Below are positions 5,941 to 24,277 of a stretch of 42,500 nt of DNA, in pieces. Location: the NCBI GenBank assembly GCA_001801885.1, contig MGYU01000013.1:1-42500 (forward strand), in the 5' to 3' direction. The notes under the pieces are model-generated. The model had not been told where the DNA came from. It saw only the letters and a program-made list of their open reading frames with translations, and made no database searches. The position numbers and the translations under genes were made by a program. The DNA comes from Gammaproteobacteria bacterium RIFCSPLOWO2_12_47_11 (GTDB lineage Bacteria; Pseudomonadota; Gammaproteobacteria; Eutrophobiales; Eutrophobiaceae). Within the stretch, counting starts at the first letter, position 1. Each line of letters starts with the position of its first letter.

Positions 5941-6140
5941 CCATAAGCTGCGGTCTTTTTGCACGGCTCAACTGCTGATCCGTGAAAAAATGATATTGCA
6001 ATTTGTTATTCTAAATTAATCTAAAAATATGGAAAATAATTACTTTTAATTATAGGTTGAGTCCGTTAAATTGGCGGCCTGATCAACCCCGAGCTTTACA
6101 TCCACGTTACCGTTGAATAATTACCAGCGAGGCACGAACA

Positions 6141-9100
6141 TTGGCAGCATCGCATCGAATTGCAGAAGACCATAACTTAATCCTTGGAATTCAAGGTTTC
6201 AGCTATGCTGATCTGTATAAGCCTTCGCGTCTGGCTGACCTGTTGAATGTATTTGATACCACACTCAAAGTGCTGGATGCAGGACTGTTTGCCGAGTATC
6301 AAACTTACAAAAATACACTCGGTAAAGAGATGGCACCGCAGGCCATCTCTGATCTTCTGGTGCGTCTGGCGCCGCATGTGGGGGAATTTGTTGCACGGTT
6401 GTTTCATGTCGAAGCAGAACGTGCCAATCAACAATCGGCCATCCGGGATGAAGTCGAAACAATCTTTGTTTTTCGCAACGAAATCGTTGAGAAAATTCAG
6501 GCCCGCTTCAAGGATGCGGATATCACCCGGTGGGATATAAAAAAGATTCAGGGTGATATTGATCTGTTAAAAAGAATTGCCTTTCCGGAAACGGCCACTG
6601 ACACAGATCTGGAACATGCTTTCTGCCGGGTGGGCTCCAGGCTGGCCCGGCTTTCCAATCATTACCGGGGACTGGCCAGGGGCAAGCCGGCTGAAATAAA
6701 TGATGCGGATTCAGAGGTAAACACTCTCCGGCAACGGCTTGAAGCTGACCCGCAAAGCAAAGTAGCGTTCGCTGCAGCTTTGGCAAAACAGGAACCTGCT
6801 GAATTTACCGATGTGTTGCTGGAAGCTGTCCAACGCTGGTGTTATGCAGCGCTCAATGACCCGGAACTCAATAAAATTATTTCAGGATGGATGAGCTTCA
6901 AGACACCCCGGAAAACTGATATTAAACATCTGGTCCATCATGAAACCCGGCAACGGGAAGGTTTTACTACCTGGACAGCACCGGCCGGGGAATATCGGCG
7001 CCGTGACGGTTTTGCCCTGACGGATCCACGCTTTATTGAACGACAAGTACTGTATGAGGTGGACCACTGTATATATTGTCACGACCGGGACACTGATTCC
7101 TGTTCGAAGGGCATGCGCAACAAACGTGGCGGGGACTACAAGACCAATGCCCTGGGTGTCACCATCATCGGCTGTCCATTAGGTGAGAAGATATCGGAGA
7201 TGCATGTCGTGAAACGGCAGGGTGATAATATCGGCGCACTGGCTCTGGTGACAATCGATAATCCCATGTGTCCCGGTACCGGCCACCGTATTTGCAATGA
7301 TTGCATGCGGGGTTGTATCTACCAGAAAACCGAGCCGGTCAATATCCCGCAGATCGAAACCAACGTCCTGACTGACGTCCTGTTCATGCCCTATGGAGTT
7401 GAGATATACAGCCTGCTCACCCGCTGGAATCCGTTGAATGTGAAACGGCCTTATGCCTTGCCCTACAACGGCAAAAATGTGCTGGTGGTAGGTATGGGTC
7501 CGGCGGGCTATACCCTGGCGCATTACCTGATCAATGAAGGTTTTGCCGTTGCCGGCATCGATGCCCTGAAAATTGAGCCACTGCCGGTGGAACTCACCGG
7601 CAGCAACACGCGATTACCCCGCCCGGTCAGGGATTTCCGGGAGTTGTATGAAGACCTGGATAAACGACTGTTGGCTGGTTTTGGTGGGGTAGCTGAATAC
7701 GGTATTACTGTTCGCTGGGACAAGAATTTCCTCAAGGTAATCTATCTGACCCTGGCCCGGCGCAACAATTTCCGCTGTTTTGGCGGTGTACGTTTCGGCG
7801 GGACTATCACCATTGAAGAAGCTTGGGAGATGGGATTCGACCACATCGCCATCGCCAGCGGTGCCGGCAAACCTACAATTATCGGTCTGAAAAACAACCT
7901 GATCCGGGGTATACGCAAGGCCTCGGATTTTCTCATGGCCCTGCAATTGACCGGGGCTGGCAAAAATTCCTCATTGGCCAATCTGCAGGTCCGCCTGCCG
8001 GCCGGTATTATTGGGGGTGGACTCACAGCCATTGATACGACTACAGAAGTAACTGCTTATTATCCAGTACAGGTAGAGAAAATATTGCATCGCTACACAA
8101 AACTGGTTGAGGAGCAAGGTGTAGAGACAGTGCGTGCTGTTTATGACCGGGAAGAACTTGAGATCCTGGATGAGTTTCTGTCCCATGGTCGCGCCATATT
8201 GTCCGAACGCCAGCGTGCCACTGCCGCGAGTGAAAAACCCGATTTTCAGCCACTTATTGAACAATGGGGTGGTGTTACCCTGTTTTACCGCAAGGGCATT
8301 GAAAACGCCCCGGCCTACCGGCAAAACCATGAAGAAATCCATGAGGCCTTGAAAGAGGGCATACAAATCGCCGAGGGCATGAATCCGCTGGAGGCCATAC
8401 CGGATGAATACGGGGCGCTGCAGGCCGTCCGCTTCGAACAGCTGGAAGAAAAGGAAGGCCACTGGTTGTCCACAGGCAAAGAAGTGGAAATACCATTGCT
8501 TAGCCTGTTTATCGCCGCCGGGACCTCGCCCAATACCATATATGAGCAGGAACACCCCTACAGCTTCAGGATGGATGAAAAATTCTTCCAGCGCTATGAA
8601 CCGCACTGGAATGAACCTGACCTGCCGGAACTGGTGCCCATGGACGATGCTACCATCCCCAAGATAGGCCGTCCGGCTCCGTTTTCCTCCTATCACAAGC
8701 ACGGCAAATTTATTTCATTCTACGGTGACAATCACCCGGTATATGCCGGTAATGTGGTCAAAGCCATGGCCAGTGCCAAGGATGGTTATCCCTATATCGT
8801 CAAACTGTTTGAGCAGGAATTATTGGCGCTGGATCCGGCACAACAGCAAAGCCGGAACCAGTCCATGCAGGGTTTATTCAAGCAGCTGGAAGCCGATTTA
8901 ACCGCCACAATAATCGAAGTTAACCGCCTCACCCCCACTATTATCGAGGTCATCGTGCATGCCCCCATGCAGGCCCGCAAATTCCATCCGGGACAATTTT
9001 ACCGGGTGCAGAATCTCGAGAGTCTGGCACCGGTTGTCGAAGGCACTGTACTCGCTGCCGAAGGTCTGGCCCTGACCGGGGCCTGGGTTGACAAGGAAAA

Positions 9101-9872
9101 GGGACAAATTTCACTGATAGCACTGGAAGTGGGCAGTTCTTCCAGGCTCTGTGCACTGTGGAAACCGGGCGACCCGCTCGTTGTGATGGGTGTGACCGGC
9201 GCACCGACCGAGATTACCCGGAACAAGACGGTCATGCTCATCGGTGGCGGGTTGGGAAATGCCGTACAGTTTTCGATAGGCAAGGCCTTGAGGGCCACGG
9301 GGAATAAAGTCATCTATTTTGCCGGTTACAGGCATCCCACCGATGTGTTCAAGGTGGCGGACATTGAGGCTGCATCCGATGTTATCGTCTGGGCCGTCGA
9401 TCCGGCCCCCGGCGTGAAGCCTGTTCTCACTACTCGCCCGCAGGACAAGACCTGTATAGGCAATATCCTGGATGCCATCGAAGCCTATGCCAAAGGGGAT
9501 CTGGGCGATACTTCTATCAAATTATCAGAGGTTGACCATACCATAGTGATCGGTTCGGACCGCATGATGGCAGCTGTCAAGGAGGCCCGGCATGGCCGCC
9601 TCAAACCCTGGCTGAAACCAGGGAATACTGCTATCGGTTCCATTAATTCACCCATGCAATGCATGATGAAAGGCGTATGTGCGCAATGCCTGTGCAAACA
9701 TGTTGATCCGCATACCGGCGAAGAATACTTTGTCTATTCATGCTATAACCAGGATCAGGAACTCGACCGTGTGGATTTCCCCAACCTTAATGCACGTCTG
9801 CGTCAGAACACAGTACAGGAAAAACTATCCAGAATGTGGCTGGATTATCTCCTGGAATCACACAACCGATAA
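6141..9872 (+). CDS. Fused GltD/NfnL-like and PyrK/NfnS-like iron-sulfur flavoprotein
   Basis: This is a 1243-residue predicted cytosolic electron-transfer enzyme. Residues 1-300 are mostly helical with no domain I recognise. Residues 310-392 hold exactly eight cysteines (310, 313, 321, 345, 377, 385, 388, 392), including GCPLGEKISE and a CPGTGHRICNDCMRGC-type motif. This is the arrangement that carries two [4Fe-4S] clusters in GltD, DPYD and NfnL. A GltD-like FAD/NAD(P) region follows, with VVGMGPAGYTLAHYL (449-463) and GIIGGGLTAID (622-632), and a helical insertion at about 640-780. Residues about 920-1243 resemble ferredoxin-reductase/PyrK modules: HPGQFYRVQN (949-958), LIGGGLGNAV (1033-1042), and CMMKGVCAQCLC (1174-1185) with Cys1201 as a likely [2Fe-2S] site. 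The TTG start at 6141 is supported by CGAGG eight bases upstream and an in-frame stop at 6114. Physiological substrates are unknown. Confidence 0.85.
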   Translation: MAASHRIAEDHNLILGIQGFSYADLYKPSRLADLLNVFDTTLKVLDAGLFAEYQTYKNTLGKEMAPQAISDLLVRLAPHVGEFVARLFHVEAERANQQSAIRDEVETIFVFRNEIVEKIQARFKDADITRWDIKKIQGDIDLLKRIAFPETATDTDLEHAFCRVGSRLARLSNHYRGLARGKPAEINDADSEVNTLRQRLEADPQSKVAFAAALAKQEPAEFTDVLLEAVQRWCYAALNDPELNKIISGWMSFKTPRKTDIKHLVHHETRQREGFTTWTAPAGEYRRRDGFALTDPRFIERQVLYEVDHCIYCHDRDTDSCSKGMRNKRGGDYKTNALGVTIIGCPLGEKISEMHVVKRQGDNIGALALVTIDNPMCPGTGHRICNDCMRGCIYQKTEPVNIPQIETNVLTDVLFMPYGVEIYSLLTRWNPLNVKRPYALPYNGKNVLVVGMGPAGYTLAHYLINEGFAVAGIDALKIEPLPVELTGSNTRLPRPVRDFRELYEDLDKRLLAGFGGVAEYGITVRWDKNFLKVIYLTLARRNNFRCFGGVRFGGTITIEEAWEMGFDHIAIASGAGKPTIIGLKNNLIRGIRKASDFLMALQLTGAGKNSSLANLQVRLPAGIIGGGLTAIDTTTEVTAYYPVQVEKILHRYTKLVEEQGVETVRAVYDREELEILDEFLSHGRAILSERQRATAASEKPDFQPLIEQWGGVTLFYRKGIENAPAYRQNHEEIHEALKEGIQIAEGMNPLEAIPDEYGALQAVRFEQLEEKEGHWLSTGKEVEIPLLSLFIAAGTSPNTIYEQEHPYSFRMDEKFFQRYEPHWNEPDLPELVPMDDATIPKIGRPAPFSSYHKHGKFISFYGDNHPVYAGNVVKAMASAKDGYPYIVKLFEQELLALDPAQQQSRNQSMQGLFKQLEADLTATIIEVNRLTPTIIEVIVHAPMQARKFHPGQFYRVQNLESLAPVVEGTVLAAEGLALTGAWVDKEKGQISLIALEVGSSSRLCALWKPGDPLVVMGVTGAPTEITRNKTVMLIGGGLGNAVQFSIGKALRATGNKVIYFAGYRHPTDVFKVADIEAASDVIVWAVDPAPGVKPVLTTRPQDKTCIGNILDAIEAYAKGDLGDTSIKLSEVDHTIVIGSDRMMAAVKEARHGRLKPWLKPGNTAIGSINSPMQCMMKGVCAQCLCKHVDPHTGEEYFVYSCYNQDQELDRVDFPNLNARLRQNTVQEKLSRMWLDYLLESHNR

Positions 9873-21789: not shown

Positions 21790-22278
21790 TCAGGACACAT
21801 GATAGCGGCGGCGTAAATCCCGTAGAATGATAAATAACCAGGGCCACAATACCATACTGGTGAAGGCAGGCATCCAGTAAGTCCATGACCTGGGTGGTAT
21901 GCCCATGATGCCACGTACCCACAATGACAGTAATTGATAAACAACAACAAAAAGACAAATCACCAGTGCTTGCTGTACCAGCGGGTACATTCTGACGCGT
22001 TGATGTGATTTCAGTGTAAGGAACGCAAGAATGGCAAGACCAATTGCATTTTGACCGAGGAGGGTCCCTTGCAATACGTCTAGGAATATACCCAACAACC
22101 AGCCAACCCCGATACCCACCCGGTGTGGCAATGCCATACACCAATAGATCAATACCATGGCAACCCACGCCGGGCGCCAGTTAATCGCCCATTCAGGCAA
22201 CGGCATGGCAGTTAACATCAATGCCACGATAAAACTGAAAAAAATAACCCCGCCACCGTGTTGTTTTTCTGTATTCAT
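21790..22278 (-). CDS. mreD: Rod shape-determining protein MreD
   Basis: MreD is a small polytopic inner-membrane protein of the elongation complex that modulates MreC-PBP2 interaction. It has 162 residues with about five hydrophobic segments. Family features are LPEWAINWRPAWVAMVLIYW near the N-terminus and VGIGVGWLLGIFLDVLQGTL with GQNAIGLAILAFL in the middle. The start codon overlaps the mreC stop by 4 bases (22275-22278), as is usual for mreC-mreD. The product is recognised mainly by topology, these short motifs and its location. Confidence 0.95.
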   Translation of the reverse strand: MNTEKQHGGGVIFFSFIVALMLTAMPLPEWAINWRPAWVAMVLIYWCMALPHRVGIGVGWLLGIFLDVLQGTLLGQNAIGLAILAFLTLKSHQRVRMYPLVQQALVICLFVVVYQLLSLWVRGIMGIPPRSWTYWMPAFTSMVLWPWLFIILRDLRRRYHVS

Positions 22279-23141
22279 TGGTTCACCGCATAATCACTGC
22301 TGTAAAAACCAATCCTGACATAATCATTCGGCCATACCAGTAATACTTCCCGGATCTGTTCCAGTTTGGCACTGGGCGCAACCTTGACCTTGGCAAAAGG
22401 TTCGGCAGGGTCGAGCATGATATCTATTACTACACCTACCGGATATCCAGGCGGAAAACGGCTGCCCAGCCCCGAAGACACAATCAAATCCCCTTTTTCA
22501 ATGTCTGCATTATTGGGTAAATATTCCAGCTGCAGGCTCTGGCTCAGACCAGTGCCCACGGCGATAGCGCGCAAACCATTCCGGTTGATCTGCACGGGTA
22601 TGGCGTGAGTCGGATCAGTAATCAATAAAACCGTGCTGCTGAATGGCCCGACATGGACTATCTGGCCCATGATCCCGTTTGCATCAACAATAGGTTGTCC
22701 ATCATAAGCCCCTTCACGTTTGCCCTTGTTGATGACTACTGTATGACGGAATGGTTGCATATTGACCGCAAGCAATTCGGCAATAACAACCTTGTCGCCA
22801 AGCTTGAATGAGGATTCAAGCAGTCTGCGTAAACGTTCATTTTCCGTCTCCAGGATTTCATATTTTTGCAGTTTTGAACTTAACAATAATTGTTCTTTAC
22901 GCAATCGCTCATTTTCACTCAGTAATGATTCATGTGTGACAAATGAATCCTTGGCCCAGCGTGTCACCATGAAAGGAGTATTTACAAGATATTGCAGGGG
23001 ATAAACAAGTACAGAAAGCGCCGAACGAACAGATTCAAGATGACTGTGACGATGATCGACAGTCATCAGTATTATTGAAGCCAATATAAACACAACCACT
23101 TTTACATTGGCTGAGGGACCCTTTAAAAACAGTGTATTAAT
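22275..23141 (-). CDS. mreC: Rod shape-determining protein MreC, apparent AUU start
   Basis: MreC is a bitopic inner-membrane protein whose periplasmic domain forms filaments and activates PBP2. The conserved N-terminal block (x)LF.(R/K)GPS before the membrane segment is present here as NTLFLKGPSANVKVVV, but it lies upstream of the first GTG (23099) and no ATG opens it. The best start is ATT at 23141, with a perfect AGGAGG six bases before it and an in-frame TAG at 23147-23145. This gives 288 residues: membrane helix about 15-29, coiled coil about 60-100 (ENERLRKEQLL, ETENERLRRLL), then the beta-barrel core (NKGKREGAYDGQPIV, GLVVSS-like DLIVSSGLGSRFPPGYPVG). The start is inferred; the identity is certain. 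Confidence 0.93.
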   Translation of the reverse strand: MNTLFLKGPSANVKVVVFILASIILMTVDHRHSHLESVRSALSVLVYPLQYLVNTPFMVTRWAKDSFVTHESLLSENERLRKEQLLLSSKLQKYEILETENERLRRLLESSFKLGDKVVIAELLAVNMQPFRHTVVINKGKREGAYDGQPIVDANGIMGQIVHVGPFSSTVLLITDPTHAIPVQINRNGLRAIAVGTGLSQSLQLEYLPNNADIEKGDLIVSSGLGSRFPPGYPVGVVIDIMLDPAEPFAKVKVAPSAKLEQIREVLLVWPNDYVRIGFYSSDYAVNQ

Positions 23142-23147
23142 GATCTA

Positions 23148-23153
23148 CCTCCT
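23148..23153 (-). promoter_or_regulatory. Shine-Dalgarno of mreC that decides its start
   Basis: On the minus strand this reads AGGAGG. It is 6 bases before ATT at 23141, 15 bases before CTG at 23132 and 48 bases before GTG at 23099. Its placement favours ATT as the mreC initiation codon. Confidence 0.7.

Positions 23154-23173: not shown

Positions 23174-24277
<1,104 letters not shown>

Follow-up and report, generated by a model that had tools for sequence, protein, structure and literature searches.

The window analysed here, a 42,500-nucleotide stretch that is contig C13 of a 2.35 Mb genome in 115 contigs, carries mreB, mreC, mreD, mrdA and rodA in that order. All three mre genes lie on the minus strand. 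The mreB gene (23174-24220) begins with ATG and scores above the NF010539/TIGR00904 cut-off, while mreD (21790-22278) scores above the TIGR03426 cut-off and has an ATG that overlaps the mreC stop codon as ATGA. Between them, mreC (22275-23141, aligned with 12 relatives) spans 288 codons plus a stop when read from an ATT, and its product matches TIGR00219 with 218.8 bits (curated cut-off 92.75) and PF04085 with 149.7 bits (cut-off 28). An earlier note on this DNA had proposed that mreC starts at this ATT, and the features on which it relied are seen in the sequence. Reading along the minus strand, a perfect AGGAGG Shine-Dalgarno hexamer (23153-23148) is followed by an in-frame TAG (23147-23145), which excludes any start further upstream, then by ATC (23144-23142), the ATT (23141-23139) and the codons AAT ACA CTG TTT TTA AAG GGT CCC TCA. 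Only ATC, ATT and CTG are start-like between the TAG and the conserved N-terminus, and of these only ATT is properly spaced, lying 6 nt behind the hexamer compared with 3 nt for ATC and 15 nt for CTG (23132-23130, codon 4 of mreC). The CTG was rejected as the start, since Leu4 is encoded by CTG in just 36 of 96 cases. The first in-frame ATG, GTG or TTG after the TAG is a GTG at 23099-23097 (minus strand), which is in the open reading frame list and would be the usual choice of gene callers; it is codon 15 of mreC and falls inside the membrane helix, so that the MreC N-terminus is indeed encoded upstream of every ATG and GTG.

In an alignment with E. coli MreC (PDB 7eft), residue 3 falls on residue 3 and the N-terminus is gap-free, which places the window's ATT at the position of the ATG encoding E. 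coli Met1. The same codon was then compared among relatives, as the earlier note had advised. Of 58 genomes in this first comparison, 57 had a match, and the mreC loci given for 30 of them have ATT (20), ATC (7) or ATA (3) at the aligned codon, and ATG in none. Because all 30 loci carry one of these three codons (hereafter ATH, at the codon aligned with the window's mreC ATT), the ATT is neither chance nor the sequence error at 23139-23141 that the note had wished to see checked. In 28 of the 30 loci, the interval from the upstream in-frame stop to the ATH codon is free of ATG, GTG and TTG, the exceptions being L011 and L024. Within the window's own family (f1), ATH is found in 36 of 36 readable genomes, 29 from the first comparison and 7 further ones, where readable leaves aside G020 with its mreC fragment. 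With an obligate ATT in the window, an AUU, AUC or AUA codon kept in its relatives, a strong Shine-Dalgarno sequence and normal starts in mreB and mreD, initiation of mreC at ATT 23141 is strongly supported by comparative sequence evidence.

Translation could alternatively begin at the downstream canonical codon (GTG 15 in the window, GTG 17 in Pseudomonas-like genomes), with the upstream block left untranslated. Databases seem to use this downstream start, gene callers can choose only such codons, and the published numbering of P. aeruginosa MreC, as far as the source was consulted, agrees with a start at codon 17. Against this, codons 2-14 change in the manner of protein-coding DNA, their amino acids being conserved and their third positions free and mostly the most variable, and the aligned block is translated from an ATG in E. 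coli. The next canonical codon also shifts among relatives, from 3 to 25 codons past the mreC start, the Shine-Dalgarno sequence points to codon 1, and a downstream start would cut into the membrane helix. Initiation at GTG 23099, which the earlier note had named as the outcome that would overturn its proposal, would remove a conserved N-terminus, and we regard it as very improbable.

The case of Pseudomonas bears directly on the numbering of MreC. PrrF, which we take to be a Pseudomonas RNA, scored above its gathering threshold in all six genomes of family f145 and in none of four genomes from other families, and f145 was therefore taken as Pseudomonadaceae. The mreC start position is ATC or ATT in each of the six; in three of them (L346, L347 and L349) a stop lies just upstream, separated by three codons, and no canonical codon precedes a GTG at codon 17. 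When the P. aeruginosa MreC crystal chain 6zlv is aligned, Glu110 and Arg112 correspond to Glu188 and Arg190 in the consulted part of the published account (PMC8137920), and comparison with L346 suggests that the published numbering runs 16 short, which would place the start precisely at codon 17. That account also has the first 14 residues span both the cytoplasmic portion and the membrane region (PMC8137920), for which 14 residues are too few. Judged from these alignments, the P. aeruginosa numbering appears to be 16 residues short, structural constructs and alignments of this protein probably lack the 16 N-terminal residues, and Pseudomonas is apparently among the lineages with an AUH (AUU, AUC or AUA) mreC start.

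The earlier note had viewed the AUU start as a local rarity, and in this respect it was mistaken, as the feature is lineage-wide. Of 370 genomes drawn from the Gammaproteobacteria, 339 have a TIGR00219 match, and starts were read under one rule for at least one genome in most of the families drawn, giving 221 genomes, of which 216 were readable; the survey totals count 7 genomes classed as "other" and 5 unreadable ones within the 221. ATH was found in 116 of the 216, comprising 103 that lack any canonical codon between the in-frame stop and codon 4 inclusive, and so have no canonical start able to encode the conserved N-terminus, and 13 with a far-upstream canonical codon or an open frame. The 93 canonical genomes comprise 73 with a canonical codon near the aligned start and 20 with a far one only, in a class that is drawn generously, as it includes 10 genomes with an ATG, GTG or TTG three codons past the aligned start, which in several of them is the conserved Leu4 written as TTG. 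By family (164 in total, 159 readable), ATH occurs in at least one genome of 72. A scan of named genomes, drawing partly on the same contigs as the first comparison, returned ATH at 72 of 80 gammaproteobacterial loci (all except L060, L075, L093, L094, L097, L103, L106 and L108), including an ATC in the named isolate Methylohalomonas lacus HMT 1 (L062). Which of the three codons is used tracks base composition, with a mean GC3 of 0.71 for genomes with ATC, 0.50 with ATT and 0.54 with ATA. The choice among them does not seem to matter, and such interchangeability is what one would expect if poor start codons were used as a class and no single codon were favoured.

The strength of the Shine-Dalgarno sequence was measured as the energy of its duplex with the anti-Shine-Dalgarno (kcal/mol). 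The hexamer most like AGGAGG is found 5-8 nt ahead of the start in 109 of the 116 ATH genomes. Median energies for mreC are -7.7 in the 116 ATH genomes and -2.9 in the 93 canonical ones (p = 6e-19), or -7.4 (72) against -2.9 (80) when counted by family (p = 2e-14). Genomes with ATG at the aligned codon have a median of -3.2 (n = 38), and E. coli mreC, with its ATG, has -3.0; canonical mreC genes are thus close to the upstream background, whose median is -2.7 (n = 115). At 86 ATH loci with readable neighbours the energies are -8.3 for mreC, -4.0 for mreB and -5.7 for mreD, and at 29 canonical loci -3.1, -3.5 and -5.8, respectively. In general, a poor mreC start codon is paired with a strong Shine-Dalgarno sequence and a good one with almost none, the exceptions being 21 of the 116 ATH genomes weaker than -6 and 22 of the 93 canonical genomes at least that strong. 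Once phylogeny is allowed for, the link is modest, with 9 supported independent pairs of which 5.1 run in the same direction and 0.2 in the opposite one (median p 0.06), and just 3 independent pairs when ATG alone is set against ATH. A strong Shine-Dalgarno sequence may be required for any AUH start to function, whatever its output. Nor does a weak sequence simply mean low output, because mreB, the presumed abundant partner, has a weak one itself.

It could then be that the AUH start is a neutral relic, compensated by the strong Shine-Dalgarno sequence and devoid of regulatory meaning. On a class-wide tree (209 genomes, short N-terminal stretches), parsimony gives 54 changes in four states, 37 of them within ATH, with no clear deficit of changes between ATH and ATG, and lineages with canonical and non-canonical mreC starts coexist, as a relic would allow. 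Around the window the pattern is different: the tree of 115 full-length MreC proteins has 24 changes among ATT, ATC and ATA and 3 between ATH and ATG, for which the binomial P is 0.008 (3 or fewer of 27, expecting one third of third-position changes to lead to ATG). Avoidance of ATG is therefore shown by the full-length tree only, and not by the class-wide parsimony. A relic is also hard to reconcile with the uniform ATH of family f1 when a single mutation would give ATG, usually the favoured codon, and with the near-background Shine-Dalgarno energies of canonical mreC genes. On balance we consider neutral persistence unlikely.

Two further explanations would make the start codon incidental or move the start elsewhere. 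In the first, regulation would reside in a structured or switching RNA at the start of mreC, an idea raised by the arrangement CTGTTTTT-AAAAACAG-CTGTTTTT around the start (window 23172-23123, minus strand). Folding was no better than that of shuffled sequences, with z of -0.50 for an 81-nt stretch of the window, -1.27 for a shorter stretch and -1.66 to 0.45 in three relatives, and an Rfam search of the window gave no match; a regulatory RNA was rejected on these grounds, and this account has very little probability left. As an observation in its own right, CTGTTTTT, AAAAACAG and CTGTTTTT permit two alternative pairings about the mreC Shine-Dalgarno sequence, and they are not found whole in the relatives read. 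In the second, a longer MreC would arise by readthrough or frameshifting from upstream, where the frame is open in a few relatives, such as L011. However, in-frame stops lie at most 3 codons upstream in 26 of the 103 obligate ATH genomes, and the ATH position is that of E. coli Met1, and a longer product is very improbable.

Initiation at the AUH codon itself can be set against the starts of neighbouring and comparable genes. Under a loose rule, mreB has a canonical start at 104 of 105 loci (the remaining one being cut by a contig edge) and mreD at 110 of 110, and the mreD start lies 4 or 1 nt inside the end of mreC at 74 of 92 distinct ATH loci. The earlier note had cited infC and pcnB as examples of rare AUU starts. 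The first holds here: infC of the window's genome (G000:C68, L228) starts with ATC behind GGAGGA, and ATC, ATT or ATA stands behind GGAGG in most of the 27 infC starts listed. The second does not, as pcnB starts mostly with ATG in these relatives, in the 26 genomes listed, and it was dropped as a second positive control. When 33 proteins of the window were scanned against NCBIfam, 31 had family matches, and there were no other odd starts in the window, mreC being the only gene in which the best family match reaches beyond the first ATG, GTG or TTG by more than 3 residues on the upstream side. For rodA, one model begins its match 3 residues upstream, and a plain ATG is present.

We consider it likely that mreC, in this organism and across much of the Gammaproteobacteria, has a conserved, IF3-discriminated AUU, AUC or AUA start that would hold MreC, and probably MreD, below MreB. 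The start position, its conservation, the Shine-Dalgarno sequence, the normal mreB and mreD starts and the ATC of infC are read from sequence; the low set point of MreC, the coupling of mreC to mreD and the response of mreC to IF3 are inferred. In this mechanism, the strong Shine-Dalgarno sequence would recruit the 30S subunit ahead of mreC, but owing to the poor codon-anticodon fit, proofread by IF3, only part of the 30S complexes would start. MreC would thereby be kept below MreB, which is freely initiated from the same operon. As mreD starts within the end of mreC and probably depends on its translation, the throttle would carry over to mreD if the two are coupled, and MreC and MreD would be limited together while mreB stays free. 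As with infC, a shortage of IF3 relative to 30S subunits would be expected to raise mreC output. According to the consulted part of a study of Streptomyces sigR, IF3 represses starts other than ATG, GTG and TTG (PMC5472188), and if the start is right, an IF3 response of mreC follows from such known biochemistry. In E. coli, the consulted part of another study reports that excess MreC alone makes cells shorter and wider that MreD suppresses this effect at least in part, and that balance matters (PMC7793260). The earlier note had suggested that a rare start would keep MreC low relative to MreB or link it to initiation-factor levels, and both ideas fit the comparative pattern and the known IF3 biochemistry, with control of the MreC ratio the most likely function. 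A counterpoint is that the 93 canonical genomes, and E. coli, manage with canonical mreC starts. A wider scenario is doubtful and is offered only tentatively: ancestral gammaproteobacterial control of mreC by IF3 might make the elongasome (MreC itself, with MreD following through coupling) respond to how much IF3 there is per free 30S subunit, such that cell-wall elongation and width would track translation capacity, with E. coli-like lineages later swapping to AUG and almost no Shine-Dalgarno sequence.

Several known systems resemble this arrangement. infC uses IF3 discrimination for its autocontrol, and mreC resembles it in having AUU, AUC or AUA, codons of the IF3-discriminated class, directly behind a strong GGAGG-type sequence at normal spacing, with no canonical alternative and with the codon class conserved. 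While infC feeds back on its own IF3, mreC encodes a cell-shape protein, and any control would thus be one-way, with no feedback loop. E. coli pcnB has an AUU start and, like mreC, lies outside the translation apparatus, but comparable conservation was not seen among the 26 genomes. E. coli mreC shares the operon order and the N-terminal block of the window but differs in its ATG and its near-background Shine-Dalgarno sequence. A parallel in ratio control is described in the consulted part of the Streptomyces sigR study, where a conserved GTC (32 of 34, with GTT in 2) behind AGGAGGTG sets the ratio to RsrA, an operon partner made in a different amount (PMC5472188). Like mreC, sigR combines an extensive AGGAGGTG with a non-canonical start conserved across relatives; unlike mreC, which is known from sequence in at least 72 family-level groups, it concerns one genus, and there the start and its repression by IF3 were proven experimentally (PMC5472188). 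Among the open-access papers that the literature searches listed, none dealt with a non-canonical mreC start, and in the consulted part of PMC4448311 mreC appears only in a table row.

The start of mreC would thus join a known kind, with infC, sigR and pcnB, as a newcomer whose conservation is apparently much wider, in which the AUH codon is probably a built-in brake on the amount of MreC. To our knowledge, only very few bacterial genes have a confirmed non-canonical start. If the proposal is true, start-codon proofreading would be used outside the translation apparatus as an enduring means of setting a protein ratio, here in a core gene of cell shape and across dozens of family-level groups, and the mreC start would offer a direct test of translation capacity feeding into cell shape. 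On the practical side, the annotated MreC is probably wrong by some 14-20 residues in many genomes, among them those of Pseudomonas, and constructs or alignments of such proteins would miss the cytoplasmic tail along with some of the membrane helix.

Some observations stand apart from this argument. In L075, a Chromatiales MAG, the mreC start position holds GTT, preceded by GGAGG; two Streptomyces species have this codon as their variant of the sigR start. The mreC fragment of G020 comprises 72 codons, and a TAA lies within the match in G027, G271 and G073; these four are perhaps decayed genes or assembly errors. Elsewhere in the window, a 1251-codon frame (6117-9872, plus strand) has piecewise matches to glutamate synthase beta and polyprenylphenol hydroxylase models, scoring far under the model cut-offs (613 of 1072 bits).
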